Shown here one piece after another: positions 9,530 to 29,011 of a DNA stretch of 29,107 nt (position 1 is the stretch's first letter; each line of letters starts with the position of its first letter). The stretch comes from a virus. The stretch lies in IMG/VR virus record IMGVR_UViG_3300036791_001917, positions 1 through 29,107 of that record; one strand, written 5' to 3'. Both the position numbers and the translations under genes were made by a program. The notes below the pieces were generated by a model. That model was given only the letters and a program-made list of their open reading frames with translations. It ran no database searches and had not been told where the DNA came from.

Positions 9530-10171
9530 TCACGCAGCCGCTTTCAGAACGAACCCCTTGACGGTGAAGTCGAACTGGCCGACGCCGAGTGCGCCTTGCC
9601 CAACGTCTTCGCCGGAGAGGGAAGGCTCGCCGTAGCAGAGGCGGACTGCGCCATCGGCCAACGTCACGCGAATGAGAGCGAAGCCGGTTTCCTGTGCAAT
9701 CGAATCGAGCAAGTCCCCTGCCACAGTCGGGCTCGTTTGCGCCAGGATCTTGATTTGGAACGTCTGCGCTGCGAGGTTGCCTTGCTCCTCCTGCGTGATC
9801 GTGTCGATCAAGCGAGTGGCGTTCAGCTTGGTGCCTGCGCCGCCGCCGATGGCGTAGGAAGTCGCTTCGACGAGAGTCACCCACGTCGCCGCGGGGATGA
9901 AATTGCCGCTCGTGTAGACACCCATGCTGCTCGTGTTCATGCCTTCGAGCTCGAACGTGTTCGCAGTCGGGTTGTTTACGCGCGCCGCTTGCCCTGTCAA
10001 TTGATCCATGCCGATGACCGAGTCGAAGTAGCCTGCGGCTGCGTCGAGCAATCCGTGTGCGGTTGCGGTTGCAACAGGTGGCTTCGCGTTGGTGACAGCG
10101 GTCACCGCAATGGCCGCGGCGAAAGTCGCTGCGACTTCGATTCGGACCGAGCGGCCCTTGACGTTTGCCAT
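9530..10171 (-). CDS. Major tail tube protein, 213 aa
   Basis: The protein lies directly before the chaperone pair, the position of lambda gpV. The start at ATG 10171 (MANVKGRSVRIEV) is chosen because agagggg precedes it, the upstream extension overlaps a terminator, and it aligns with the start of a paralogue encoded at 17157-18122. The product is beta-rich, with a conserved AHGLLDAAAGYFD segment at about residue 38, SYAIGGGAGTKLNAT in the middle and FDFTVKGFVLKAAA at the end. It would polymerise as rings around the tape measure. The predicted hairpin and T tract just upstream (10190-10213) suggest it is regulated separately from the head-completion genes, as suits a protein needed in many copies. 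Confidence 0.85.
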   Translation of the reverse strand: MANVKGRSVRIEVAATFAAAIAVTAVTNAKPPVATATAHGLLDAAAGYFDSVIGMDQLTGQAARVNNPTANTFELEGMNTSSMGVYTSGNFIPAATWVTLVEATSYAIGGGAGTKLNATRLIDTITQEEQGNLAAQTFQIKILAQTSPTVAGDLLDSIAQETGFALIRVTLADGAVRLCYGEPSLSGEDVGQGALGVGQFDFTVKGFVLKAAA

Positions 10172-10189
10172 GAGTTTTCCCCTCTGCGT

Positions 10190-10213
10190 AAAAAGCACCG
10201 CGTCCTGCGGCGC
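10190..10213 (-). terminator. Predicted attenuator or terminator before the tail tube gene
   Basis: On the minus strand gcgccgc, a 5-nt loop and gcggtgc form a 7-bp stem with one G-U pair, followed directly by T5 (10194-10190). It fills most of the 46-bp gap between the tail terminator gene and the tail tube gene. The stem is short, so partial termination or 3'-end protection is more likely than a full stop. Confidence 0.55.
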
Positions 10214-10217
10214 GAGT

Positions 10218-11909
10218 CTAGACCCATCGGTCGGCGGTGAGAATTGCCACGTCCATCGTGGTCGCCTGATCGAATCCACCCTGTCTGGTGAGCACGTCGA
10301 TGTCGTCGATGTCGGTGTCGAACACTTGCTCGACCGCATCGGCCAATTGCTCGGCGTGTTCCGCCTTGTATGCCCAGCACGCGATCGTGAATGAAATGCG
10401 ATCCGAGGCAACGCTGCCGTCGAGGAAATGCTGCCGATCGATCGACGCGGTCACGACGATGTAGGGCGCCACCGTTTTCTCGTCGGCTGCGTTGAGGATG
10501 ATCGCTCCCAGCCCCTGCAACTGCGGCGCGGCGCGCAGCAAGGCGATCATTTCCTCGGCGGCGCGACTCGGGCTGTGCGGCACAAGCACTATGGCGTCGC
10601 TGCCTGCATCGAAGCCTTCCACGCTGTAGCCTTCGGTGTCGTAACCGATGGAAACGCCTTCGTCGTAGCCGGCGTCCGAGAAGCCAGCATCGTCGTACGT
10701 GCTCGCCGTCGTCGCGGACCCTTCGTCATAGTCTGGATCCGAGAAGCCCGCAACGTCGAACGTCGCCGCCGCTGTTGTGGACCCTTCGTCATAGTCGAGG
10801 TCCGTGAAACCGGCAACGTCGAAGGTGTCGCTGCCGCTGCCATCTCCACCGCTGCCGCCTATCGGTTCGCCGGGGTCGAGGCGGCAATCGAACGTCACGA
10901 TTGCCGTGTCATCGCCGGTTTCGTGATCCAGCCCGCTGGTGCGAGTCGTCATCCGCACCTGTTGCGTCGTGTAGACGACGTTTTCGACCTCGTCGGCCAG
11001 CTGCTCGGCTTCGTCGGCGGTGCTTGCCCAGCAGGCAACGGTGAACGTGATCAGGTCCGAGGTCGCGTAGCCGCCGATGGTGTGATCCGGCTGAAGCGTC
11101 GCGTTCAGCACCGCATAGGGTGCTACCGTCTTCTCGTCGGCGGCGTTCATCGCGATCGATACCGAGATGTTCGCGGCAAGGAGTTCGCGGAATTGCGCGA
11201 CCGCAACGCTGACGTAGTGCGGCCATTCCTGTTCGCGCCACTGATGCGGGCCAGTCTCCGGGTCGAACCATCCGTCGACGCTGATTTCGCTGACATCCAG
11301 CAGCGTCTCGAAATCGACTCGAGCGCTGCGTTGCACGACGTGCAGATCGTCGCCTGTCGTGTAGATCGCTTGCTCGACCGCGTCGCCCAGGGTTTCCGCT
11401 TCGTCCGCTGTCGACGCCCAGCTTGAGATCGTGAACGTCGGGTTGTCGGCGAGCTTGACGCTGCCAATGGAACGCGTCACGTTGTGCGAGCCCGTGACGA
11501 CGATGTACGGCGACAGCACCTTCTCGTCGGCGGCGTTGAGCGAAATGTCGATAGACCCGCCGCCGCGATTGGACGGGTGGTCCGGGCCGCGGACGCTCGC
11601 CATCAGGGCGGCAATGCCCGGGTCGGCCCGAAGCATCGCTATCAGGTCGGCCTCTAGGGACTGGACATCGCCGACGCCGCCGCCAACGTCGCCTTCGTCG
11701 TAACCCAGAACGCTGAAGCCCGCGACATCGTAGAACGGTTCGCCTTCGCCGCTGGCGTCGTACCCTTGCTCGCCGAAATCGGGGGGGTCGTCGAAATAGG
11801 CGGTCGCGTCGAAGGGGACCGCCAAGGGGCGCGCAGGCTTTCCCGCTACCCTACCCGCGCCTGACAGCGGAACGTGCGCCTGAGGGCGAACTGACGCGAC
11901 GGGGGGCAT
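10218..11909 (-). CDS. Triplicated tail terminator (DUF3168-like), 563 aa
   Basis: Tail terminator or completion proteins normally have about 130 residues and form a hexameric ring capping the tube at the head end. This one holds three related copies, at about 81-215, 233-345 and 440-563. Each has NAADEK (at 125, 255 and 473), then a PYIVVT-like strand (PYAVLN in copy 2), FT[IV][SA].W near 159, 289 and 507, and a helix of the DEAEQLADAVEQV type followed by T[TD] and an R-rich strand. Between and before the copies lie short acidic repeats of the form FDVAGFSD..YDEG at about 59-73, 363-377, 384-398, 404-418 and 422-435. A single polypeptide could supply half of a hexameric ring. The N-terminal 58 residues are Pro/Ala-rich and of unclear role. 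ATG 11909 has gggag about 10 nt upstream. No frameshift is seen across the gene. Confidence 0.8.
   Translation of the reverse strand: MPPVASVRPQAHVPLSGAGRVAGKPARPLAVPFDATAYFDDPPDFGEQGYDASGEGEPFYDVAGFSVLGYDEGDVGGGVGDVQSLEADLIAMLRADPGIAALMASVRGPDHPSNRGGGSIDISLNAADEKVLSPYIVVTGSHNVTRSIGSVKLADNPTFTISSWASTADEAETLGDAVEQAIYTTGDDLHVVQRSARVDFETLLDVSEISVDGWFDPETGPHQWREQEWPHYVSVAVAQFRELLAANISVSIAMNAADEKTVAPYAVLNATLQPDHTIGGYATSDLITFTVACWASTADEAEQLADEVENVVYTTQQVRMTTRTSGLDHETGDDTAIVTFDCRLDPGEPIGGSGGDGSGSDTFDVAGFTDLDYDEGSTTAAATFDVAGFSDPDYDEGSATTASTYDDAGFSDAGYDEGVSIGYDTEGYSVEGFDAGSDAIVLVPHSPSRAAEEMIALLRAAPQLQGLGAIILNAADEKTVAPYIVVTASIDRQHFLDGSVASDRISFTIACWAYKAEHAEQLADAVEQVFDTDIDDIDVLTRQGGFDQATTMDVAILTADRWV
10647..10826 (-). 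repeat. Three tandem ~60-nt coding repeats (FDVAGFSD..YDEG)
   Basis: Within the tail terminator gene, three consecutive units of about 60 nt encode TFDVAGFTDLDYDEG, TFDVAGFSDPDYDEG and TYDDAGFSDAGYDEG with Ser/Thr/Ala spacers. On the plus strand the word cccttcgtcatagt recurs exactly 60 nt apart, showing a recent duplication. Diverged units flank the block (residues 59-73 and 422-435). Confidence 0.8.
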
Positions 11910-12751: not shown

Positions 12752-15730
12752 TCAATATTGCTTCCACAACTCGTGGCGCTGCGAAACGTTGCCGTCGCGC
12801 TCGTCCTTGATGCCGTAGTACTCGTAGTTGTACTGACCGCCACTCCAGTTCTCGACGCGACCGTACGGGCCGGTTAGATGCGTCATCGTCGTGAAACCGA
12901 AATTCTTGAACAATTGGATCATTTGCGAATACATCGCCGCCCCGCCGGGACCATCGAGCCAATTTTTGAAGTGCTCGATGACGTCGAACTTGAACTGATA
13001 GCCGTGATTCGAGTGCTGCGAGAAGCCGAAGGAGGCGCACATTCCGCATTCGTAAGAGCACATCTGAAGGCCGGGGACTTTCGATTGCGCGAAGTCGTGC
13101 GACACCTGCATCTGATACTGGACGAAATCCATTCCGGGCTTGATCTGGCTGTCGTAGTACGAATCGGGGACCATCCCGTCCGTGTACCCGGCGTTCCATG
13201 CGCTGTCCGGCCAGATCACGTCGCCGGTCGCGGATTGATAGACCTTGTCGAAATAGAAATAGGGCGCGTGTGAGTACCGGGAGCGAGAGAGCGTGGCCGC
13301 GAGGATCTGCGAGACCGTCTGCCCCGCGGTTATGAAGCCTGGGTCCACGTAGTCCCAAAAACCCGACCACGAATTCTGCGGGTACGACGACTGATTCTCG
13401 ACCATGCGAATGACTTGTCCGGCCGGGAAGACCGCCTCGAACGCCTTCCAGCATTGCAGCATCAGCCAGCCTTGTGCTGCTCCGCGAGCATTGGTGAGAC
13501 CCGCCGCAATGTGGCTGCCGAGCCCCGGGTCCCACGATTGCGGCACCTGATAGTTCCAATGCTCGTTCGCGGAAGTGACGTAGTACGTGAGTCCCGGTGC
13601 AGCGTCTTTCCACGCTTGCGCGTACGGGGTGTAGTAATCGGCCACCGGGTTGATGTCCAGACTTCCGATGAATGGATAGTTCAGTGTCGCGGGCGTCGCG
13701 ATATTCACCGGGATCGACCACCCACTGCCGTTGTTCGATTCAGTAAAGACGATGATCGCCCCGCCCGATGTAAGGCGGAGTTGGAAATGAAGCGCATCGA
13801 CGACGTGAACGTAGTAGATCGTCTGCGAGTGAATCGTCGTAATGTTGGTGAGTGGACCGTCGATCCATACCCGTTCGTTTTCCTTAAGACCGTGCGGAGT
13901 TGGAGGTGCTGCGACATCGTCAGCCCCGTGGCCGGTGCCATCAGGAGGCGGCTTGTCGTAGTTGTTCATGGCCGTCTGCGCCAGCATCGCAACCGTGCCC
14001 GCAGTGAGATCGATCTTGAACCGGTTGTACCTGTCGCCGATTGGCAGATTGATGTGAACCGCCTTCGCGCCAACCTCAAGCGCGACCTTGGCCATTACGA
14101 CAACCGGGCACGGGCCGAGATACATCGATCCGCCAGCCCAATAGCCGTGCCGCGATTCCGTGTTGCGAATGTCGGAGAACCAACGGTAGTAGTCCCCGAT
14201 TTCGGCGTTGAGTCCTTCCCAATCGAAGAAACGGATAGTGTTGCAACCTTGGTACGCCGCACGCCACGCCGGCCTAGTGATCTGCCCGGCATCGAGCAGC
14301 GAGCGCTCCGATACCTTGCAACAGACGACATTGGTCAGGTGAATAGTGCCGCCCGTGTCGTTTCCGAACCGCAGTGAAAGACTGAAATTCGACCACCCGG
14401 AAGTTCCCGCATCGAGCGCAGTGAACGTGGCACGCCCGTAGCCGGGTACGATGTTCGTCAGGTAGGGACCCGGTTGCCCCGATGTATTGGTCACCGCCAC
14501 GTACGCAGTCGGTGGAACGCAGGTGACTTCGTAATCGCCGGGCGGAAAGTAGCCGTGGTTGTCGTCCAGCGCGAAAACCGGATTCGTAATCGCCCAGTCG
14601 CCGGGATCGATGTTGGTGGGGAAAGCGTCCGCATCGACCGTGAAAGGCTGACCGTTCTGCTTGTTACCCCACCAGCCGCCATCGACCAGTTTCGAGATGT
14701 TGATGAATGGGTAACTCGAATACCAGTAGGAGAATTTCGCGGTGTTGTAGCTGTGGATCAGCGGGCTGAATTTGATGTATGGCTGGAGGGCGTTGAAGAA
14801 CACGGTCGCCATCTGCTGCCCGCCGGTCGGATTCGGGTGAATCCCGTCTGCGGTCATCGTCGCCGGATCGAATCCGGTGTACTGATCGACAACCGTGATC
14901 GGCGACTGCGGTGTCGAATTCGCCGCCGCCCATCCGGGGATCTGTGCGTTGAGCGACTGCACGCGCGCGTCGCCCCCGGGCCACTGCGTCCCCATGCCGA
15001 TGATCTGCGAGACGAAGAGATGCACGCTCGGGTTCTGCACGCGCGCGCGGTCGAGCATCGCCTTGTAGCCGTTGAGGATGCTCGTGTTCGACACGCTCGA
15101 ATCGGCGGCTGCGAGGTCGTTCGTCCCCATGTGCAGGATGACGATGTTCGCGGCGGTGCCGACGAACCAGTCATCCAGATCGCGTGCGTCGCTGTAGTAG
15201 GGCGGGCTGTTCGGCCAGCCGGGGCCGGTCCCGGAGCCGGCCGGGATGTTCAAGTCGGTCGCGCGATACCCGGAATACCCGTTGTGATCGAAATCGAGGT
15301 TGGCGATGTTGTTATAGGTGATCGAATTGTTGCCGACGAAATCGAGCGGTTGCTTGGCGAGAGCCGTCCATTCGGGCATCTGCTGCATGAGGAGCCGCCA
15401 GCCAGAGTTGGTCGTGTCGTTGGCGGTGATCGAATCTCCGAGCGGCATGATCTTCAGATGCCGGGCCGAATATTCCTCGCTGTCGCACTGAAGCTGCTTC
15501 CACAGGTTCGGGTTGTACGTCGATCCGAAATTCGCTGACGTTGCGACGATGGTGGCGTTCGTCACGTTCTGCACTGGCGACCACATCCGCCCCGTACCGA
15601 AGCGGATGTTGCCGGTGACGTTGGAAATGGTGTCGCCCTCGTTGGCGATTCGATACCAATGTTGCGTACGAGCGGGCGGCTTTGCCTTGCCTGACCCGTG
15701 CAGAAAGAGGTTGCGCAGCTTGGGGTTCAT
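12752..15730 (-). CDS. SGNH esterase plus probable glycoside hydrolase, virion protein, 992 aa
   Basis: Starts at ATG 15730 (ATGA overlap with the fibre gene). Residues about 92-320 form an SGNH/GDSL hydrolase: block I LKIMPLGDSIT (Ser100), block II glycine in NGYSGYRA, block III HMGTND (Asn204) and block V DGIHPN (Asp295, His298). These are the residues of the catalytic triad and oxyanion hole. Residues about 340-475 look like a beta-sandwich carbohydrate-binding region. From about 485 to 950 an alpha/beta fold with WRAAYQGCNTIRFFDW, TSANEHWNY (Glu723) and CSYECGM (Glu894) resembles clan GH-A (TIM-barrel) glycosidases with two candidate catalytic Glu. A segment at about 594-680 looks like an inserted beta domain. 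The likely role is deacetylation and cleavage of a host surface polysaccharide during adsorption; the esterase call is firm, the glycosidase call is inference. Confidence 0.75.
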   Translation of the reverse strand: MNPKLRNLFLHGSGKAKPPARTQHWYRIANEGDTISNVTGNIRFGTGRMWSPVQNVTNATIVATSANFGSTYNPNLWKQLQCDSEEYSARHLKIMPLGDSITANDTTNSGWRLLMQQMPEWTALAKQPLDFVGNNSITYNNIANLDFDHNGYSGYRATDLNIPAGSGTGPGWPNSPPYYSDARDLDDWFVGTAANIVILHMGTNDLAAADSSVSNTSILNGYKAMLDRARVQNPSVHLFVSQIIGMGTQWPGGDARVQSLNAQIPGWAAANSTPQSPITVVDQYTGFDPATMTADGIHPNPTGGQQMATVFFNALQPYIKFSPLIHSYNTAKFSYWYSSYPFINISKLVDGGWWGNKQNGQPFTVDADAFPTNIDPGDWAITNPVFALDDNHGYFPPGDYEVTCVPPTAYVAVTNTSGQPGPYLTNIVPGYGRATFTALDAGTSGWSNFSLSLRFGNDTGGTIHLTNVVCCKVSERSLLDAGQITRPAWRAAYQGCNTIRFFDWEGLNAEIGDYYRWFSDIRNTESRHGYWAGGSMYLGPCPVVVMAKVALEVGAKAVHINLPIGDRYNRFKIDLTAGTVAMLAQTAMNNYDKPPPDGTGHGADDVAAPPTPHGLKENERVWIDGPLTNITTIHSQTIYYVHVVDALHFQLRLTSGGAIIVFTESNNGSGWSIPVNIATPATLNYPFIGSLDINPVADYYTPYAQAWKDAAPGLTYYVTSANEHWNYQVPQSWDPGLGSHIAAGLTNARGAAQGWLMLQCWKAFEAVFPAGQVIRMVENQSSYPQNSWSGFWDYVDPGFITAGQTVSQILAATLSRSRYSHAPYFYFDKVYQSATGDVIWPDSAWNAGYTDGMVPDSYYDSQIKPGMDFVQYQMQVSHDFAQSKVPGLQMCSYECGMCASFGFSQHSNHGYQFKFDVIEHFKNWLDGPGGAAMYSQMIQLFKNFGFTTMTHLTGPYGRVENWSGGQYNYEYYGIKDERDGNVSQRHELWKQY

Positions 15731-17160
15731 GGCGTGACGGTGAAGTTGTCCCAAACGCTCACGGCCGCGGCGAAGCCCATCAACCCTATCTTGGTCGCGC
15801 TTGCGTTTGTCGGCATCGCGACGTTCGTGAGAACCGCCGTGTTGTCCGTCTTCACGGTGATGTTCGTGCCTCGTTTGACGATGGTGATCCCCACCCACGT
15901 GTTGTTCGTGATGACGTTGTTGGCGGACAGCGCGACATCGGTGGCCACACCGCCAGAAACGGATTTCAGTTGGAGCGCCAACGTGCCATCGCTTACTTGG
16001 AACATGTAATCGAAGTTGTTGAGGTCGACGACATTGAAGGCTATGCCCGACCAGACTGCTGTCGGGAGGAAGCTGCAATCGAGCGTGAAGTCGGTCTTGC
16101 CCGCGCCGAGTTCCAGATACGCGACGCTGTTGGTGGCCCCCGGAGTATTGAGGGAGGCCCCGCCTCCGGCAACGCCCCAGACGCCATCGAGCACGACCCA
16201 CGTCTTGCCGTCATCGGAGACGCCGAGGGAGGTGGCGTTGTCGGCGCGCGTGAACGTGTCGTACGCCAGCTTGGGCGGAGCGATCAGGTTGGTGACGGCG
16301 GTCGCAGGGAGTGCCGCTGACAGGTTGCCGGCCGCGTCGCCGATCTTGCCCGCTGCAATCGCGATGGTGGGCGCGTCGGCGGATGTCCACGCGCTGCTGT
16401 ACGTGATGGAGATGATCGCGCCACTGACAGCGATGCCGGTGATGGTGCGGCCTCCGGCCGCGCCGGTCGTTATGTCTGCAGCGATGGGCTGCTTCGCGCC
16501 GATGTTTTCGCTCATCGTCACCGTGATGACGAGCGGTGTCGCAGCGGCGATCACTTCCGACACGTATGTCGGTGCCGTCACGTCGAGGACGCTCAAAAGC
16601 GACCATGCGAAGATGACGTCCGTGCCCTCCTTGGAGGCGACGAAGAGCGTCTGTGCGCCGGGACCTGCCCCGAGTGAATCCGAGCCTTTGTTCAGCCACG
16701 CCGGTGGCGTAGTCGCAGCATGCGCGCCGACAGAATCTTGCAAGAAGATGCAGGAGCACGAGCCGTCAAGGACGGAGCCGAGCCCTTCGCTCAAGGCGAC
16801 ATCGGCCGTGAGCTTGTGGGAATACGCGCCAGAGTCACGCATGCGTTTGCCGAAGCCGGCGGTGTCCAGAGGTACGGCAGCCGTGAACGCGATGTCGAGG
16901 GCGTCGGCGCTTCCGCCCGTCCCCGACACGGTCAGATTGCCCGGCCCGAGGATGCTCGCCCCGTTGATCGTCTTGATGTTCGTGCCGGACACGAGGGTGT
17001 CCTGCTTGTTGTTCGCCGTGGCCTGCGCGGCGTCCGCACTGTTTGCGGCGTTGACGTGGTTGGCGTCGTGCTCGTTCCATGTGAGGGCGGAACCCTTGGC
17101 AGCGCGAGTGATGATCGTCGTCGCGTGCGGAGAGACTCCGGCTTGCTTGTCGGTGCTCAT
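15727..17160 (-). CDS. Fibre-like virion protein with Ig-like and lectin-like domains, 477 aa
   Basis: ATG 17160 overlaps the preceding stop (ATGA) and has aggaagga 9 nt upstream. Residues about 51-78 (KQDTLVSGTNIKTINGASIL) are a motif typical of phage tail fibre proteins. Residues about 190-285 (TAPTYVSEVIAAA, then VTMSENIG and IAAGKIGDAAGNLS) match the SwmB/bacterial Ig-like type of repeat seen in adhesins. From about 295 to the end a concanavalin/LamG-like beta sandwich is likely (YDTFTRADNATSLG, WSGIAFNVVDLNNFDYMF, MGFAAAVSVWDNFTVTP). No enzyme motif is visible. The sugar-binding fold fits recognition of a surface glycan, with the enzyme encoded next door acting on it. Its place among head-completion genes leaves open whether it sits on the tail or on the head. 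Confidence 0.7.
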   Translation of the reverse strand: MSTDKQAGVSPHATTIITRAAKGSALTWNEHDANHVNAANSADAAQATANNKQDTLVSGTNIKTINGASILGPGNLTVSGTGGSADALDIAFTAAVPLDTAGFGKRMRDSGAYSHKLTADVALSEGLGSVLDGSCSCIFLQDSVGAHAATTPPAWLNKGSDSLGAGPGAQTLFVASKEGTDVIFAWSLLSVLDVTAPTYVSEVIAAATPLVITVTMSENIGAKQPIAADITTGAAGGRTITGIAVSGAIISITYSSAWTSADAPTIAIAAGKIGDAAGNLSAALPATAVTNLIAPPKLAYDTFTRADNATSLGVSDDGKTWVVLDGVWGVAGGGASLNTPGATNSVAYLELGAGKTDFTLDCSFLPTAVWSGIAFNVVDLNNFDYMFQVSDGTLALQLKSVSGGVATDVALSANNVITNNTWVGITIVKRGTNITVKTDNTAVLTNVAMPTNASATKIGLMGFAAAVSVWDNFTVTP

Positions 17161-18122
17161 GCTGCTCGTTCCTTCCTGACTACTTTTTGAACGGTGACTT
17201 CGTCGTATCCGGCCACGTCAAAATCGGGAGCACTGTACGTCGTCGTCCCTGTGGGCGGTTGCATTTCGTCGAAACCATCGACATCGTATCCAACGACGCT
17301 GAATCCGCTGTCGGGAGGCGGCTGAGTACCCGGTGGCGGTTTGAGAAGCGGCGGCGGTTGATATGGTGGCACAGGCGGCGGCGCCTCGATAAGCGACGGC
17401 GGCTGATACGGTGGCACAGGCGGCGGCGGCTTGATAAGCAACGGCGGCTGATAACGCGGCGGCGTCAGGCCAGCGAGTTGCAGGAAAAGGCCGTCGAGAG
17501 AGAGCGTGAGCGAGCCGGTGCCCATCGCCTCGGCCTGCGCGCCTTCGGTCGGGTAGCTGGGAGTGCCGCGACAGACACGCAGCGCACCGCTGGCGACAAG
17601 CGTGATTCGTGCGACGACGTACGCGCCGGCCAGCGCCGCAGACTGCAACAAGCGCATCGCGGCGCTCGGGATCGATTGAGGGAGCACGGATAGCTGCACC
17701 GTCTGTTGCGCGAGGATCGACGGTCGGCTGCGCATCTGGCGGTCGAGGATCGTCGTCGCGTTCAACTGCTGCGTCGCCCCCGTGGAGCCCTCGCTCATCT
17801 GATAGCTCGTGCTCTCGGCGAGCGTCGCCCATGACGCGACCGGAACGAACAACGCCGAATCGGTGAAAGGTGGGTATGCGGTCGTATCGAGGCCGTCCGC
17901 CGTGAACGCGTCGACGGTCGGAGCCACGACGATTGCGGCCTGCCCTTGCAGTGGCGCCATGCCGTCGACGTTGGAGAAATAGCCGGCGCTCCATTCGACG
18001 AATCCGTGAGCTGGGGCTGTGACGGCTGCCGGGTTTACGCACGCTACGTTCGTGACCGTGATCGGCGGGCCATACGCAGACGCGATGTCGACCCGGACGT
18101 TCCTGCCAATGACCAACGACAC
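17157..18122 (-). CDS. Tail-tube-like paralogue with Pro-rich C-terminal tail, 321 aa
   Basis: Residues 1-218 align along their whole length with the tail tube protein at 9530-10171: GRNVRVDIAS with GRSVRIEVAA, AHGFVEWSAGYFSNVDGM with AHGLLDAAAGYFDSVIGM, ESTSYQM with EATSYAI, QLNATTILD with KLNATRLID. It then departs: residues 221-270 are proline-rich with three YQPPxLI/PPPPVPP-like units, and 271-309 carry two units (FSVVGYDVDGFDE, FDVAGYDE) related to the repeats in the tail terminator. The GTG start at 18122 has only a weak ribosome binding site but matches the paralogue's start. It lies directly after the connector and before fibre genes. It might be a minor tube or neck protein, or an adaptor anchoring the fibre. 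Homology is clear from the sequence; the role is inference. Confidence 0.7.
   Translation of the reverse strand: MSLVIGRNVRVDIASAYGPPITVTNVACVNPAAVTAPAHGFVEWSAGYFSNVDGMAPLQGQAAIVVAPTVDAFTADGLDTTAYPPFTDSALFVPVASWATLAESTSYQMSEGSTGATQQLNATTILDRQMRSRPSILAQQTVQLSVLPQSIPSAAMRLLQSAALAGAYVVARITLVASGALRVCRGTPSYPTEGAQAEAMGTGSLTLSLDGLFLQLAGLTPPRYQPPLLIKPPPPVPPYQPPSLIEAPPPVPPYQPPPLLKPPPGTQPPPDSGFSVVGYDVDGFDEMQPPTGTTTYSAPDFDVAGYDEVTVQKVVRKERAA
17313..17462 (-). repeat. Proline-rich coding repeats (YQPPxLI unit)
   Basis: Three in-frame units encoding YQPPLLIKPPPPVPP, YQPPSLIEAPPPVPP and YQPPPLLKPPPGTQP. At DNA level ggcggctgata-ggtggcacaggcggcgg-like words recur about 45 nt apart on the plus strand. The segment links the tube-like domain to the FDVAGYDE units. 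Confidence 0.75.
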
Positions 18123-18846: not shown

Positions 18847-19550
18847 GTCGCGCTCCTGCGAAATGCGAAGCTGCCGATGGATTCGCGGCCGATCGTTGTT
18901 TCGGCGTTGTTCGCTTCGATCGCCGCGAATCCGTGCCTGTGCATGAAGCCGACGAGGCCGCTTTCGGTGAAATACCAAAGATGCTCGCCGGGCTTGTAGT
19001 GTTTCGAGCCGCGCGCGTCGTCGCCGTCGCGATAAATCGGCGTCGAGATGAACACCCACCGATCGACGTTGTCGAGTATTTCGGACGGGTTCGCCATGTG
19101 TTCGATGGAATCCCACATCGTCACGGCGTCGACGCGCATGCTTCGCGGGTCGCAGAACAGGCTGCGTTCGAAGAGCCAGCGCACGCCAGCCGGGTTCACG
19201 TCCCAGCCGCTCGCTGTCGCGTATTCCAGAAAAGCCGTCACGAAGTAGCCGCCCCCGATGCCGACATCGACGATTGCGCCTTGCCAATGACGACGCACGA
19301 ATCCGATCCTCGCTTTGGTCAGAGCTCGACCCGTGTCGGTGAGGTCGAGGGCCTGATAGCGGTCGAAGTAGTCTGCGCCGTAGAAATCGGGAGCGGGCTG
19401 CACGTCGAGATAGCCGAGGCCGAGTTCAGGCAACCAGAGCAGGTGCCGCGCTGCGAGCGACGCGAAGTCGCCATTGGTCGAACTGCTCGCGAAGGTGGGC
19501 GTTCCCCTTCCTGCAAGCGTGTCGGGACGACGTGCAGCGGCAAAACTCAT
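18843..19550 (-). CDS. Class I SAM-dependent methyltransferase, 235 aa
   Basis: A Rossmann-fold methyltransferase. Motif I is AIVDVGIGGGYFV (SAM-binding Gly loop), a later acidic residue lies in ATASGWDVN, and the motif IV-like region is VTMWDSIEHMANP, followed by VFISTPIY and EHLWYFTESGLVGFMHRHGF. The order fits Methyltransf_23-type enzymes, which usually act on small molecules, sugars or glycans rather than on DNA; no DNA-methylase NPPY or DPPY motif is present. The start at ATG 19550 is uncertain: it overlaps the glycosyltransferase-like gene by 125 bp, and the first 30 residues (SFAAARRPDTLAGRGTP) are poor in family-like features, so a downstream start near DFASLAARH is possible. Pairing with a glycosyltransferase suggests methylation of a transferred sugar (inference). 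Confidence 0.75.
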   Translation of the reverse strand: MSFAAARRPDTLAGRGTPTFASSSTNGDFASLAARHLLWLPELGLGYLDVQPAPDFYGADYFDRYQALDLTDTGRALTKARIGFVRRHWQGAIVDVGIGGGYFVTAFLEYATASGWDVNPAGVRWLFERSLFCDPRSMRVDAVTMWDSIEHMANPSEILDNVDRWVFISTPIYRDGDDARGSKHYKPGEHLWYFTESGLVGFMHRHGFAAIEANNAETTIGRESIGSFAFRRSAT

Positions 19551-20955
19551 CAGGCATCCCCCAGCCAAGCAGGTCGTCGGCCATCGACGGGACGGTGATC
19601 CGCTCGGGCGCATTGTGGCCCCCTTGACCGCCGAGGATGATGAAAGCAGGCACATGCGCCGCGATCGCCGCCGGCAAGATCCAGCCAACAGGGCCGCACA
19701 CGGCGGCGGCTGCTTGCACGATGGCGAGGAGTTGCAACGCGTCGAACTCGCCTGCGTGATAGGACTCGTCGGCTTCCGGCAACGGGGCAATGGCAGTTTC
19801 CTCGCCGTCCTTGAGGTCGGCGATGCTCACCACGTGCATGCCTTCCCGCCGCAGCCAGCGCGCCACGTCGCGCACGTATTCGGGCAGCGGGTTGCGGGCG
19901 GGGTTCAACCATTCCTTGCGCACCGTGACCGGGCGGACCAAACAAACCGGCTTGGCGGTGACGATGGGTGAAGGCGGGAGCGGAGGCAGATCGAGCGCGG
20001 CACCGGATGCTTCGATGCCGAACGTGTCGCGCAGCCCGTGCCACATCGAATGGCCCGAATGCAGCGCGTTCACGTAGCTGATTGCGCGCATCGCGCAGCC
20101 GCGTTTGATGGTTGCACGCAACTCGGATTCCGTGGCGAAGGCTGTCGGCGTCCTCGCCTCGTTGCGTGCCTGCGTTCGCAGCGTGGTGCGCGACGCGAAC
20201 AGGCGCAGCGCCGGTGTCATGTCGGCGTAGAGCTGCGGCCAGGGCGTCGACAGGTAGACCCGATGACCGCGGGTCAATTCGCGAACGTACGGGCGCTGAT
20301 AGAGGTTGTCGCCGAGGCCGAGCATGCCGCGCACGAAGACTTCCGGGCGCGGCAGTTCGTCCTCGAGGTCAGCCTGCTCGAAGCAACGCAGGGCGGTCTG
20401 CCGCGAGCAGTTCACGACTTCGATGCCCATCCTGCGAAGGTCTTGCGCGGCGACTGCGAAGCGTTGGCGCCAGAGGACGAAGCCGCCCGCGACCGGGTTG
20501 CCGAGCGCCGGTGGGTGGTCCCGGTGGCAGTGCAGCCGGCCTCCGCTGGCCTGCATGTCGTAGCCGACGAGGATGATGCGCAGAGGCCCCCAGAGGGCGA
20601 TGAGATTCAACGCGGCGTAGCCGCTGTTGCCTCCGGTGTGGATGCAATGCGCGGCTGTGCTCATGCCGATGCCGCCATTGTCCGGGTCGAGGCCACGGAT
20701 CGCGTTGACACCGGGCACGCCGTCGTCCGTGCACCAGTGCTCGCCTTCGGTCTTGTCGATCTCGCGGCGGTAGTGCTTCCACCACTGTGCGTCGCCACCG
20801 TAGAGCACGTCGGCCCACGGCGCAAACGGTGCTAGCCCCGCGTTATTGACCGCGACGACTTTGCGAAGCGCTGGGTCTCGATCGCGCCATGCGTGGGCGA
20901 GTGCGCAGTCGTCGCTGCTGAGACTTGGGCCGCTGGCAAGGCAGACGACGACGCA
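19426..20955 (-). CDS. Two-domain glycosyltransferase-like protein, 509 aa
   Basis: The frame is open and coding-like far upstream of GTG 20808: the added residues include LLASGPSLSSDDCALAHAW and KVVAVNNAGLAPFAPWADV, running without a stop into LYGGDAQWWKHY. I therefore start it at ATG 20955 (GTG 20994 is the next option; neither has a good ribosome binding site). Residues about 1-220 resemble phage proteins of the MptE/DUF115 or GT42-like kind, with GPSL, HTGGNSGYAALNLIALWG and RIILVGYDM. Residues about 230-480 resemble a GT-B glycosyltransferase of the GT9 (heptosyltransferase-like) type: RGMLGLGDNLYQRPYVREL at the N-terminal half, then CLVRPVTVRKEW, CGPVGWILPAAIAAHVPAF and IILGGQGGHNAPER. 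The end CRCTSSRHACRK is Cys-rich. It overlaps both neighbours by about 125 bp. The acceptor is unknown; capsid protein or host glycan are both possible. Confidence 0.65.
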   Translation of the reverse strand, partial: CVVVCLASGPSLSSDDCALAHAWRDRDPALRKVVAVNNAGLAPFAPWADVLYGGDAQWWKHYRREIDKTEGEHWCTDDGVPGVNAIRGLDPDNGGIGMSTAAHCIHTGGNSGYAALNLIALWGPLRIILVGYDMQASGGRLHCHRDHPPALGNPVAGGFVLWRQRFAVAAQDLRRMGIEVVNCSRQTALRCFEQADLEDELPRPEVFVRGMLGLGDNLYQRPYVRELTRGHRVYLSTPWPQLYADMTPALRLFASRTTLRTQARNEARTPTAFATESELRATIKRGCAMRAISYVNALHSGHSMWHGLRDTFGIEASGAALDLPPLPPSPIVTAKPVCLVRPVTVRKEWLNPARNPLPEYVRDVARWLRREGMHVVSIADLKDGEETAIAPLPEADESYHAGEFDALQLLAIVQAAAAVCGPVGWILPAAIAAHVPAFIILGGQGGHNAPERITVPSMADDLLGWGMPDEFCRCTSSRHACRKGNAHLREQFDQWRLRVARSAAPALVA

Positions 20956-24771: not shown

Positions 24772-26598
24772 TCAGAGTGGCGCGCTCTTGAGCAGGTCGG
24801 CCAACGGGTTGTCGGTGCTTGTTTCCAGCAACCCGATCGCCATCGCGAGCGTAACGATGCCGTCGATTCTGCCGCGCGACTTGCGCTTGCTGAAAATCTG
24901 GTTGCCCTTGTCGTCGGTCGCGACGAGCACTGCGCTCGCCGAGCAATACGTCATGCACGGGTTGCGATGCACGTCGAGGCGACCTTCGCCGATGATGTTG
25001 CCGAGCACTTCGATCGAGCGCGGCATCCACAGCGACGGCACGGCGCGGCCGTAGCGATCGGTTTTCGGTAGCGTGCGGTAGCCGCCTTGCGGATGCGCGA
25101 TCAATTCGATCTCGACGCTGGCGGTGTCCAGTTCGGGTTCGAGGAACGAGATGCGATACGGGTCGAAGCATGCGCGCGTCAGCGCCGGCAACAGCACGGT
25201 CAGTTCAGCCAGCCTGCGGGCGACCCACGCATAGTCGACGGCGCGCCCCGGCGTCGCGTGCAGGAACCCTTGACGCACCCAGAGCTCGTACGGCACGCGA
25301 TCGGTGCGGGCGCGTGCCTGCAGCGTGTCGAGCGGAGTCCAGAACTCGGTGTACGCCTTGACGCGGCCGTCCGGGTGCTCGCCGACGATCGACAGCGCGG
25401 TCAGGTCGCGCGTCCCCGACAGGTCGATCGCGCCGACGAGGTCGTCGCATTCGGCGAGCGTCGCGATCGGATCGAATTCGCGCTCGCAGCGCAGCCAGAA
25501 GTCGCCATCGATCCACGGGTTCTCGGCGCCGACCCATTGGCAGAAATTCAGCCGCGCGACCGACGACTGCTTGGACGGCATGCCGTGCGCTTCGCGCAAC
25601 TGCGCGCGAATGTAGGCCGGCTGGATGATGTGAAACAGGCCCGGGTTCGCTTTCGGCCAGCACGCTTCGTCGGCGAACGGTTCGTCGCCGTCGTCGAGCG
25701 CGCACACGTAGGCGAACCATTCGTCGTTGAAGTTGGCTTCGTCCGTCTGCGCGGCGGTGACGACCGAGATCGAATACTGGTGATGCTCCCAGCAGACGCT
25801 GTCGCGGTCGAAGCCGCTGTTGGTGATCTCGATGACGAGCGGCTGGCGACGCCATTTGCGGCCCGCCGAGGCCATGTTGACCATCGTCGCGTCGGGGTGC
25901 TCGTGCACCTCGTCGATCAGGAAGCAATGCGGGCGCGGGCCGGATTGCTTGTCCTCGCTGGCGATGGCGCGAAAGAAGCTCGCCGTGCGCAGGTAGGCGA
26001 GGTTGTGGCACGCCGGGCCGGCCGGCGTCTTCAGGACGCGCTTGGCGAGCGCGGGCGACAGGTCGACCATCGCGACGGCATCGCGGAACAGGATCATCGC
26101 CTGATCCTTCTTGGTCGCGGCGGCGTAGATCTCGGCGCGGTACTCGTTGTCGCTGGTCAGGCAGTACAGGCCGATGCCGGCAGCGAGCGGGGACTTGCCG
26201 TTGCCCTTGCCCATCTCGATGTAGGCGGTGCGGAAGCGCCGCGTGCCATCGGCGCGCAGCCAGCCGAAGATGCTGCCGATGATGAATTCCTCGTAGCCGA
26301 GCAGCACGAACGGCTGGCCTTCGAACTGGCCGCCGTTCAGGCGCAGCACTTCGGGGAAGAATTCGAGCGCGCGGCGGGCGACTTCGCGATCGAACGTCAG
26401 GCCGCGGGCGGGCGCGTTTTCGAGGTCGCGCAGATGGCGCGCGCACGCGGCGCGCACGTGCGGGCCGGCGAGGATCTGTTCGGCGACGACGCGTCGTGCG
26501 TAGCGCGTCGTCGGGTCGCTGCCGTCGTCAGAAGAAGCGGTCTTCCGGGTCGCGCGCGCCCGAGGTGCGTCCGTCGCCTCCGGGTGGGATTCCGACAT
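24772..26598 (-). CDS. terL: Terminase large subunit, 608 aa
   Basis: The packaging motor and nuclease, of the Terminase_1 (HK97/P27-associated) type. The ATPase has a Walker A-like loop YIEMGKGNGKS at 127-136 (Lys135) and Walker B CFLIDEVHEH with Asp229-Glu230. The nuclease domain starts near 388 with LVGAIDLSGTRDLTALSIV (Asp392, Asp398), carries ACFDPYRISF later, and ends with KSRGRIDGIVTLAMAIGL, which holds a further conserved acidic residue. ATG 26598 has ggag 5 nt upstream, although it overlaps the small subunit gene by 71 bp; a later start would cut into the N-terminal helix. Length is slightly above the usual 550-580. Such terminases normally cut at cos sites. Confidence 0.95.
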   Translation of the reverse strand: MSESHPEATDAPRARATRKTASSDDGSDPTTRYARRVVAEQILAGPHVRAACARHLRDLENAPARGLTFDREVARRALEFFPEVLRLNGGQFEGQPFVLLGYEEFIIGSIFGWLRADGTRRFRTAYIEMGKGNGKSPLAAGIGLYCLTSDNEYRAEIYAAATKKDQAMILFRDAVAMVDLSPALAKRVLKTPAGPACHNLAYLRTASFFRAIASEDKQSGPRPHCFLIDEVHEHPDATMVNMASAGRKWRRQPLVIEITNSGFDRDSVCWEHHQYSISVVTAAQTDEANFNDEWFAYVCALDDGDEPFADEACWPKANPGLFHIIQPAYIRAQLREAHGMPSKQSSVARLNFCQWVGAENPWIDGDFWLRCEREFDPIATLAECDDLVGAIDLSGTRDLTALSIVGEHPDGRVKAYTEFWTPLDTLQARARTDRVPYELWVRQGFLHATPGRAVDYAWVARRLAELTVLLPALTRACFDPYRISFLEPELDTASVEIELIAHPQGGYRTLPKTDRYGRAVPSLWMPRSIEVLGNIIGEGRLDVHRNPCMTYCSASAVLVATDDKGNQIFSKRKSRGRIDGIVTLAMAIGLLETSTDNPLADLLKSAPL

Positions 26599-27037
26599 TG
26601 ATGCGGCTCCGTGATGCGGGCGACATGCCGAACTCGACCGCGAAACGCGCCATGTCGCCGCGCGACGAGCGCAGCGTGCACAGCACCGGATTCATGATCG
26701 GGTTGCCATTGGCGGTGCGCACGAGGACGCCGCGCGTGACGGGGTCGGCGCGGGCGAGTTCTTCCATCGTGCGGGACGCCTCGACGTAGCGGCCGAACGC
26801 GTCGCAGTAGGCCATCAGCATCGGCGTGTCGAGCGCGGTCATCAACCCGCAATCGAACAACTGGCCGACGACGCGCTGCCATTCGGCCTTGGCGGTGGCG
26901 CCGAGGTGCGCGGGCGGCTCGGGTCGCGCGGGCGGCGGCTTCGGCTCGTTCTGGTTGATCGGGCGCCGGCCGGGGTTGCCCGCCGCGAGGCGGATCACGT
27001 TCGGAGTCGGCGCCCGGCCGCGTTTCATCATGGGCAT
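26528..27037 (-). CDS. terS: Terminase small subunit, P27 family, 169 aa
   Basis: The start at ATG 27037 (MPMMKRGRAPTPN) is supported by ggag 7 nt upstream; it overlaps the fusion gene by 10 bp. The sequence VIRLAAGNPGRRPINQNEPK near residue 14 is the hallmark of P27-type small terminases, followed by PPAHLGATAKAEWQRVVGQL, LMTALDTPMLMAYCDAFGRY and an end DPEDRFF. Small subunits bind the packaging initiation site and load TerL. The C-terminal stretch (INVGIPPGGDGRTSGARD) lies in the region overlapping terL. The usual length of the family is about 150-170, as here. Confidence 0.92.
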   Translation of the reverse strand: MPMMKRGRAPTPNVIRLAAGNPGRRPINQNEPKPPPARPEPPAHLGATAKAEWQRVVGQLFDCGLMTALDTPMLMAYCDAFGRYVEASRTMEELARADPVTRGVLVRTANGNPIMNPVLCTLRSSRGDMARFAVEFGMSPASRSRINVGIPPGGDGRTSGARDPEDRFF

Positions 27038-28191
27038 GGTGGTGCTCCGATCGAGGTTGCCGCGCCGGTCGCATTCTGCGCTACCTGCCCCACGTAGCGA
27101 AACGAATACGTCTTGACGCCTTCGCGAAAACCGCTGTCGCGCAGCATGTTGCCGCTCAGCACGGTCTTCAAGTTGCGCTTGACGTCGACGAGTTGCCACT
27201 CGGGCTGGCGCGCCATGTGGAGGTAGATCGGCGTGCTGGAGAATTTCGCCCACACTTCGTAGCCTTGCGCGGTCATCCACGCGCTGGTCTTGTTGATCAG
27301 CTGGATGCCCATGCCGAGGCCCGCGTAGTCGGGGTGGATCACGGTGCGATTGCTGTGCATCTTCTCGCGGCCGAGGTCGCTCTTGCGAAACGGCGTGTAG
27401 TTCGCGAAGCACTGGAAGCCGATCTGGTCGTCGCCCTTGAACAGGCCGAACACCTCGATGTGGCCGCCCGGGAGCTTGTCGCTCAGATAGTGATACTTGC
27501 TGAAATACTTCCAGGTCCGACGCTCAACGCGGCGGATGTCGAAGTGAAGCTGCTCGCTGCGCGCGAAGCTTCGTCGAAGCGACCTCCGGTCGGTGTATTC
27601 CTGCTTGTTGCAGTCGATCACCCAGTCGGGGTTGAGCCAGTCGTGCACGTCGTAGTGGCACGAGCACAGCACGATGCGCTTGTCGAACTTGCGGGCGTGC
27701 TTCTGGATGCAGTGCGACATCACCTTGCCAACGGTGCGATCGACGACGCTGGTCCACTCGTCCATGACGACGATCGTGCCGTCGACCGGCTGCGCCATGC
27801 GCAGCGCAGCTTCGGCGCGGGCGCGCTGGCCGTTCGACAGCGTGTAGGCGGGACGGATCCAGCAGACGACCGAGGTCAGGCCGACGCCGGCGAGCATCGC
27901 GGCGCATTCGTCGTACGAGTAGTGCTCGGGGAACTGGTCGATCACCGGCCGCGTCATGTCGAGCATCTCGCGGAAGCACTCGGCGCCCCAGATGTGCTGG
28001 GCGAGCGTCGTCTTGCCGCTGCCCGAGGCGCCGACGACGAGGCCGACGTTGAACGGCGTGGCGATGTCGATGCCGGCGAGGGCGAAGTGGTGGACGGCCT
28101 TCTTGTGCGGATCGATGTCGAGCGAGTTGGCGGCCTTGACGCAGCGAAACGAGGTCGCGACCGGCGATTCGAGCGTGAAGTCGACGTTCAC
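27028..28191 (-). CDS. ABC-type ATPase fused to GNAT acyltransferase, 387 aa
   Basis: Residues about 25-205 form a complete ABC-type nucleotide-binding domain without membrane partners: Walker A GASGSGKT (54-61), signature LSNGQRARAEAALRMA (118-133), Walker B TIVVMDE with Asp144-Glu145, D-loop SVVD, and H-loop CSCHYD (His179). Residues about 222-345 form a GNAT-like domain: FSKYHYLSDKLPGGHIEVFG, then GDDQIGFQCFANY, then IHPDYAGLGMGIQLINKT, whose AGLGMG matches the acyl-CoA pyrophosphate loop. Soluble ABC ATPases of this kind work on nucleic acids or protein complexes; phage Mu Mom, a GNAT-fold DNA-modifying enzyme, is a precedent for a nucleic-acid substrate. GTG 28191 is the start; the Shine-Dalgarno is weak. 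Not a transporter. Substrate unknown. Confidence 0.8.
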   Translation of the reverse strand: MNVDFTLESPVATSFRCVKAANSLDIDPHKKAVHHFALAGIDIATPFNVGLVVGASGSGKTTLAQHIWGAECFREMLDMTRPVIDQFPEHYSYDECAAMLAGVGLTSVVCWIRPAYTLSNGQRARAEAALRMAQPVDGTIVVMDEWTSVVDRTVGKVMSHCIQKHARKFDKRIVLCSCHYDVHDWLNPDWVIDCNKQEYTDRRSLRRSFARSEQLHFDIRRVERRTWKYFSKYHYLSDKLPGGHIEVFGLFKGDDQIGFQCFANYTPFRKSDLGREKMHSNRTVIHPDYAGLGMGIQLINKTSAWMTAQGYEVWAKFSSTPIYLHMARQPEWQLVDVKRNLKTVLSGNMLRDSGFREGVKTYSFRYVGQVAQNATGAATSIGAPPCP

Positions 28192-28205
28192 ATCACCGGC
28201 TTGAA

Positions 28206-28442
28206 TCAGTAGCCGAACGCGCCAAGCTCGGCGGCGCTGGGCCGTTGCTTGTCGTCGTCGTCGGCGTCGTCGCCCGCGTCGGCGGCGGTCTCGGCATCGA
28301 GGACATCGACGAGCAGTCGCAGCGACGTGTCGAGCCGCGTGCGAAGGGCGGCACCGTCGGCGAGCCGGGCGACCTCCCCCGCATCGGGAAGCCAGAACGT
28401 TTCGCGATGCTCGGGGCCGCTGTACGTGTGGATGATTTTCAT
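28206..28442 (-). CDS. Small acidic protein, 78 aa, unknown
   Basis: The start at ATG 28442 (MKIIHTYSGPEHRETFWLPD) overlaps the ParB-like stop by ATGA; a longer upstream start would duplicate the ParB-like tail in another frame with Arg-rich, non-coding-looking residues. The N-terminal half has a short beta segment and a helix (ALRTRLDTSLRLLVDVLDAE); the C-terminal 25 residues are strongly acidic (DAGDDADDDDKQ). Acidic tails of this kind occur in DNA-mimic and adaptor proteins, but nothing firmer can be said. Its place between the ParB-like and ABC-GNAT genes suggests it works with them. 14 bp separate it from the fusion gene. Confidence 0.65.
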   Translation of the reverse strand: MKIIHTYSGPEHRETFWLPDAGEVARLADGAALRTRLDTSLRLLVDVLDAETAADAGDDADDDDKQRPSAAELGAFGY

Positions 28443-29011
28443 GACATGAGCTTGACGTGAAAGCCGCGCCCGCTCATCTCGTCGTAGAGCGTCTGCAGCG
28501 AAGGCTCGTCGGCGCATTCGACGACGAGCAGGTGCTTGTCGACGTCGTCGACGTTGCGACGCGGCGGCAGGTTCGGGGTGCCGAGCATGCCGGCAAGCTC
28601 GCCGACAGAGAAGCCCAGCCGCAGGCCGTCGATGCCGGCACCGCGCAGCGAGTCGAGCTCGTAGGCGAGCTGCTCGACGTTCCAGCCGCTGTTCAGCGCG
28701 ATCTTGTTGTCCGCGAGCATGTAAGCGCGCTTCTGCTCGTCGGTGAGGCCGTGCAGCGTGATCGTCGGCACGAACGGCAGCGGCGGCTCGAGCAGCGCGG
28801 CAAGATGACGGCCGTGCCCGGCGATGATGGCGCCGTCCGCGTCGATCAGCAACGGGTTGGTGAAGCCGAACTGCGCGAACGAATCGCGCAACTGCGCAAG
28901 CTGCGCGGCCGAATGCGTTCGCGAGTTTCTAGGGTTTCCCCTAAGGGCCCTAGGATCGACGTAAACGACCGCTAGCGCGTTTGTTTGGGTCGGTAGGATG
29001 TCCGGTAGCAA
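28439..29011 (-). CDS. ParB/Srx-fold (ParB-like nuclease domain) protein, 190 aa
   Basis: Residues about 15-105 are a ParB N-terminal-like domain: YVDPRALRGNPRNSRTHSA, QLAQLRDSFAQFGFTNPLLI, ADGAIIAGHGRHLAALL (the GHGR element of the nucleotide-binding/nuclease pocket), ending with a LTDEQKRAYMLADNKIALNS helix common in phage members. The second half is a helical region plus a beta segment (DKHLLVVECADEPSLQTLYD). Members of this family in phages lie next to DNA-modifying enzymes and terminases; known activities include CTP binding and nucleolytic or regulatory roles. The start is TTG 29011, uncertain because the frame stays open to the right edge of the window (no stop in 29012-29107), so the gene may be longer. 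The first 30 codons are rich in rare-looking CTA, AGG and AGA. Confidence 0.75.
   Translation of the reverse strand: MLPDILPTQTNALAVVYVDPRALRGNPRNSRTHSAAQLAQLRDSFAQFGFTNPLLIDADGAIIAGHGRHLAALLEPPLPFVPTITLHGLTDEQKRAYMLADNKIALNSGWNVEQLAYELDSLRGAGIDGLRLGFSVGELAGMLGTPNLPPRRNVDDVDKHLLVVECADEPSLQTLYDEMSGRGFHVKLMS
28928..28954 (-). other. Clustered CCCTA/TAGGG palindromes within the ParB-like gene
   Basis: On the plus strand ctaggg, ttt, cccctaaggg and ccctagg follow one another. The segment 28940-28954 is a near-perfect palindrome (CCTA, A, GGGCCC, TAGG) with one extra A. It lies inside coding sequence but uses codons (AGG, CCT, AGA) that differ from the rest of the gene, so the base sequence itself may be selected, for example as a protein-binding or packaging site. 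No direct evidence for function. Confidence 0.35.

Follow-up and report, generated by a model that had tools for sequence, protein, structure and literature searches.

A ParB-linked ABC-ATPase–GNAT fusion upstream of phage packaging genes as a candidate DNA-modifying enzyme

The stretch of DNA analysed here, hereafter the window, is the IMG/VR virus record IMGVR_UViG_3300036791_001917, with a length of 29,107 bases. On its minus strand, a ParB-like gene is followed, toward lower coordinates, by a gene for an acidic 78-aa protein, the gene for an ABC-ATPase–GNAT fusion (ABC-GNAT), the terminase genes TerS and TerL, a portal gene, and further head and tail genes (Table 1). The last bases of the ABC-GNAT gene are also the first of TerS, which starts with the ATG at 27037.

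Table 1. Genes, domains and motifs of the locus, in coordinates of the window.
Feature	Coordinates	Strand	Basis
ParB-like protein, ~190 aa; start codon uncertain, frame open to window end	28439..29011	-	PHROG 620, PHROG 498, PADLOC MTase_II
Acidic 78-aa protein between ParB-like and ABC-GNAT genes	28206..28442	-	ORF; elsewhere only in L003
ABC-ATPase–GNAT fusion, 387 aa, GTG start	27028..28191	-	ORF; PHROG 11143 E 7e-71; motifs in 53 relatives; AlphaFold2 pLDDT 84
Walker A GASGSGKT, residues 54-61	28009..28032	-	Motif; conserved in relatives
ABC signature LSNGQ, residues 118-122	27826..27840	-	Motif; conserved in relatives
Walker B and catalytic Glu TIVVMDE, residues 139-145 (D144, E145)	27757..27777	-	Motif; conserved in relatives
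H-loop CSCHYD (H179)	27649..27666	-	Motif; conserved in relatives
GNAT domain, residues 205-372 as modelled	27076..27579	-	AlphaFold2 domain model pLDDT 84.4; Foldseek PDB
YHYL motif (His234-Tyr235), candidate active-site residues	27484..27495	-	Family-wide conservation; resembles HY(S) in Mom
NR...HPDY-AGLGMG acyl-CoA pyrophosphate loop, residues 280-295 (AGLGMG 290-295)	27307..27354	-	Motif; conserved in relatives
Terminase small subunit, P27 family	26528..27037	-	Pfam Terminase_4 E 4e-21; TIGR01558 E 3e-20
Terminase large subunit	24772..26598	-	Pfam TerL_ATPase E 3e-25

The original prediction, made from the letters of the window, described a 387-aa ABC-ATPase that also carries a GNAT-like acyl-CoA loop, and this description held. 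Besides the motifs listed in Table 1, the protein has a Q-loop (Q86) and a D-loop (residues 148-151), so that the ABC-ATPase set is complete (Walker A, Q-loop, signature, Walker B with its glutamate, D-loop and H-loop). Across 53 relatives, the Walker A, the signature, the DE pair and the glycines of GNAT motif A are invariant or nearly so. Differences from the 96%-identical L003 gene are concentrated at the third codon position (17/14/52 for the three positions), and the changed codons comprise 43 synonymous and 22 nonsynonymous ones; the gene is real and under purifying selection relative to L003. An AlphaFold2 model of the full protein, based on the 53-sequence alignment, reached a pLDDT of 84, and Foldseek matched it to ABC nucleotide-binding domains. 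The isolated C-terminal domain, as modelled, has a GNAT fold and retrieved GNAT enzymes from the PDB with E values of about 1e-6 to 1e-5. With Pfam, the GNAT score of the window protein (15.8 bits) lies under the gathering score of 20.7, while that of a relative, L002, lies over it (29.0 bits).

ABC-GNAT matches the profile of PHROG 11143, a family without an assigned function, over its full length (E 7.1e-71), with residues 7-373 of its 387 aligned to positions 5-355 of 357. A profile-derived scan of IMG/VR confirmed at least 574 relatives among the 600 matches listed, and the fusion is therefore not unusual. It is also matched by 62 phage records, among them those of Pasteurella (57% identity), Leptospira, Gordonia, Streptococcus, Aeromonas and Tenacibaculum phages. 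The two domains are split in phages of the SSU5 type and in a number of Firmicutes phages; separate, adjacent ABC and GNAT ORFs were seen in Streptococcus, Oenococcus, SSU5-type and Tenacibaculum phages (L093, L086, L087, L092, L085).

The ParB-like protein matches PHROG 620 (E 6e-38), PHROG 498, which is a phage DNA methyltransferase family (E 5e-33), and PADLOC MTase_II over the ParB-like part of that model (E 4e-24); Pfam ParB_N gave no match to it. Its GHGR and ADN motifs align with those of ParBs linked to Mom and to TAGT. The phage ParB–DNA methyltransferase fusions of PHROG 498 have the same ParB-like domain, whereas their catalytic part is a SAM methyltransferase within the same polypeptide and the window has a separate ABC-GNAT gene instead. 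The linkage between the two genes is tight. In a first, close set of loci, a ParB-like gene lies directly upstream of ABC-GNAT in 70 of the 73 testable loci; three lack this arrangement, and in one of them, L004, the start codon that was chosen seems to be the cause. A second set, which has some contigs in common with the first, shows the same arrangement in 40/40 close loci, 21/23 divergent loci and 7/11 annotated phages; all these counts come from loci gathered non-randomly by similarity search, with mechanical gene calls, and take in some near-identical contigs. Since four annotated phages carry ABC-GNAT next to no recognisable ParB gene, ParB is not strictly required. Escherichia phage Cyrano has two ParB genes in tandem.

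Outside the window and L003, the ParB-like and ABC-GNAT genes share a few bases in nearly all cases, and only in these two is the pair split by the acidic 78-aa gene. In the comparison with L003, this gene has 23 nonsynonymous and 8 synonymous changed codons, an excess from which we conclude that it is weakly constrained. Since besides the window a single near relative has it, and constraint is low, the acidic protein was rejected as a component of the module and is regarded as a local insertion. The original prediction had placed both the acidic protein and the ParB-fold protein in one unit coupled to TerS; the genes and the TerS overlap are indeed there, but the acidic gene falls outside the conserved unit. 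Downstream of the cassette lie packaging genes from many terminase and portal families, and the cassette is therefore independent of the packaging type.

The same ParB family is found with other enzymes in the position of ABC-GNAT. We fetched 80 loci of this family (L259-L338); for 74 of them, the gene that is fused to ParB or comes next was classified. In this sample, biased by its selection for similarity to the window ParB, the Pfam partners were N6_N4 methylases (36), TAGT glycosyltransferases (10), Mom (8) and ABC_tran (6), together with the rarer C5 methylases (2), D12 methylase (1) and Tet/JBP oxygenase (1); the counts are per family and may overlap, and the PHROGs agree with the Pfam classes. 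The profile of ABC-GNAT itself recognised a partner in 7 of the 74 loci, and a long ParB fusion, with N6_N4 methylase partners, was present in 34. As a control, the genes upstream of the same ParBs (63 loci) contained one N6_N4 methylase and none of Mom, TAGT or ABC. The exchange can be followed in individual phages: Psychrobacter phage Y8A has the order ParB-Mom-TerS-TerL, Escherichia phage 613R10 has ParB-TAGT-orf-TerS-TerL, and Pasteurella phage Pmp13 has ParB-ABC-GNAT-orf-TerS-TerL, while in Microbacterium phage Appa the ParB gene overlaps Mom. Given this swapping of partners and the near-empty upstream control, ABC-GNAT appears to occupy the catalytic slot of a DNA-modification cassette, and DNA is its most likely substrate, given that every other well-represented partner is an enzyme with a known or named role in modifying DNA bases. 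The partner swapping is the main new evidence presented here, although the ParB association may partly figure in Iyer et al. 2013 already. A comparable association has been described for CmoX, a characterised phage DNA cytosine carboxymethyltransferase, in that many contigs with CmoX also carry a ParBc protein (PMC12783734).

The original prediction had pointed to Mom of phage Mu, a GNAT-fold enzyme that modifies adenine. Membership of the Mom family was not borne out: neither Pfam Mom (PF25680) nor PHROG 1384 matched the GNAT domain at E values up to 1, so the domain is not a Mom orthologue, and this assignment was rejected at the level of the family models, with remote similarity remaining. 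Indeed, hhalign related ABC-GNAT to Mom at 74% (E 3e-5) over the N-terminal half and to RimI at 71% over the acyl-CoA loop, whereas Mom and RimI were related to each other at 2.6%. Like Mom, which belongs to the GNAT superfamily as well, ABC-GNAT has a His-Tyr pair before beta-2. H234-Y235 is kept in almost all members of the ABC-GNAT family, and an HY pair at a comparable place is invariant in Mom; the hhalign path puts the two one residue out of register. HY was found in the comparable region of 26 of 28 ABC-GNATs and of 0 of 18 RimI sequences in which motif A could be recognised. The two families also have the ParB partner and the pre-terminase position in common, as in phage Y8A. In contrast to Mom, ABC-GNAT keeps the canonical GxG acyl-CoA loop, and Mom has no ABC domain. 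From the profile comparison with both families, the domain is best seen as a separate GNAT branch with features of both Mom and RimI rather than as a Mom. Run against the PDB, Foldseek did not discriminate between substrates, returning generic GNATs throughout. Mom has a solved structure (8bv8); in a BFVD search, Mom of Salmonella phage FSL SP-031 stood at rank 14 among other GNATs. In the T4-like Aeromonas phage PX29 (NC_023688 / GU396103), a Mom-like gene (36309-36881) occurs together with an ABC-GNAT gene (53233-54168), so the two are not mutually exclusive.

We favour the following explanation, at a probability of about 0.65. ABC-GNAT would provide the catalysis in a two-gene cassette for the modification of phage DNA, whose other member is the ParB-like protein. 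ABC ATPases dimerise around ATP, and two ABC domains might accordingly close on DNA upon ATP binding. The GNAT domain would then move an acyl group from acyl-CoA to a base amine, for which adenine N6 and cytosine N4 are the obvious candidates. ParB-fold proteins are known to bind NTPs and to act as switches (PMC12704722), and the ParB-like protein, whose NTP binding is predicted from sequence motifs, may recruit or license the enzyme on phage DNA and assist its loading. The cassette lies upstream of the packaging genes; acylation would precede packaging and mark progeny DNA against host nucleases, with a putative benefit against restriction. That the cassette makes a chemically new base, in which an ATP-driven, ABC-clamped acyltransferase, licensed by a ParB-fold NTP switch, would put an acyl group unseen in DNA onto a base amine in very widespread phages, we consider slightly short of an even chance.

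The acylation of nucleic acid, also put forward in the original prediction, is thus the best-supported reading, strengthened by the partner swap, but the idea is not new: the 2021 review PMC7824862 repeats a prediction by Iyer et al. 2013, according to which proteins of the GNAT–ABC type acylate a base in DNA, the same activity as proposed here. The review names Tenacibaculum phage pT24 as an example. This phage has the same pair of ABC and GNAT domains (34.8% identity over 70% of the query), but they are annotated as two ORFs rather than one polypeptide, and the neighbouring genes showed no ParB homologue, whereas the window has a ParB gene and a Terminase_4/TerL locus. Our literature searches for experiments in which phages acetylate or acylate DNA found nothing relevant.

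Several observations count against DNA acylation and lend themselves to other explanations. The nearest solved GNAT folds found by Foldseek act on proteins and small molecules, the best matches being acetyltransferases of protein N termini and of small molecules; RimI, matched through a canonical motif A, is as strong a match as Mom. Host RNA polymerase is acetylated by some phage GNATs, for instance Rac (PMC7824862). Taken together, this could mean that the acyl group goes to a protein on the DNA, be it host RNA polymerase, a nucleoid protein or a component of the terminase, and that ParB and the ABC domain only place ABC-GNAT there. We regard this as unlikely, though the strongest of the alternatives, as the other enzymes found with this ParB are mostly DNA base modifiers, and the wide variation of the downstream terminase families makes a fixed terminase target unlikely. 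A little less probable still is the acetylation of RNA, by which phage or host tRNAs would be protected. TmcA/NAT10, the tRNA/rRNA cytidine acetyltransferases, combine an ATPase and a GNAT domain in one chain and act on a nucleobase; TmcA (2zpa) ranked fourth in Foldseek with an alignment across both domains, and tRNA genes lie near some of the loci. However, the superposition on TmcA is poor (rmsd 13 A, TM 0.27), so that only the ATPase-plus-GNAT arrangement is held in common, the TmcA/NAT10 ATPase is not of the ABC class, and the ParB partner points to DNA rather than to the RNA substrate of these enzymes.

The pre-terminase region may also be a general cargo site, in which the genes could form a defence, exclusion or toxin module instead of modifying the phage's own DNA. 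ABC ATPases are common in conflict systems, and the ABC part, though not the rest, gave a weak PADLOC match to mad3 (E 4e-10). We consider such a module improbable, since the inspected loci have no regular nuclease or effector companion and the ParB pairing is kept in the divergent loci. Finally, some records annotate the protein as an 'iron siderophore transporter' or a 'hemin importer', and library matches to transporter ATPases exist. We nevertheless consider a role as a transporter ATPase or in the acetylation of small molecules very improbable; the ParB partner is conserved. The transporter ATPase was rejected, as the NCBIfam models listed score far under their cut-offs (e.g. 31.5 vs 220 bits). 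No permease partner was found in any inspected locus or annotated neighbourhood, and none of the examined parts of the window contains a permease or transporter gene, as the original prediction had stated.

If DNA acylation by this cassette is as predicted, a common phage group would possess a DNA acyltransferase gated by ATP and, probably, a modified base that is new, with relevance to the restriction of phages by their hosts and to tools for labelling DNA. In practice, a gene that comes after a member of this ParB family can be treated as a candidate for a DNA-modifying enzyme, and the partners without a known role become testable in this way. Some partners in the ParB-family loci L259-L338 were not recognised modifiers, namely cytidylyltransferase-like proteins (3), proteins with a histidine phosphatase match (3) and an asparagine-synthase-like protein (1); these are candidates for new DNA hypermodification enzymes.

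Elsewhere in the window, two distinct ORFs (9530-10411 and 17157-18122) each match the major tail protein family PHROG 584. A 1149-aa frame at 12752-16201 has a weak lipase-family match only and overlaps a long frame at 15727-17160, with unclear boundaries. In the head gene region, the ORF at 19426-20808 resembles PHROG 6804 (unknown) in its C-terminal part and, in its N-terminal part, a PHROG named alpha-2,3-sialyltransferase.
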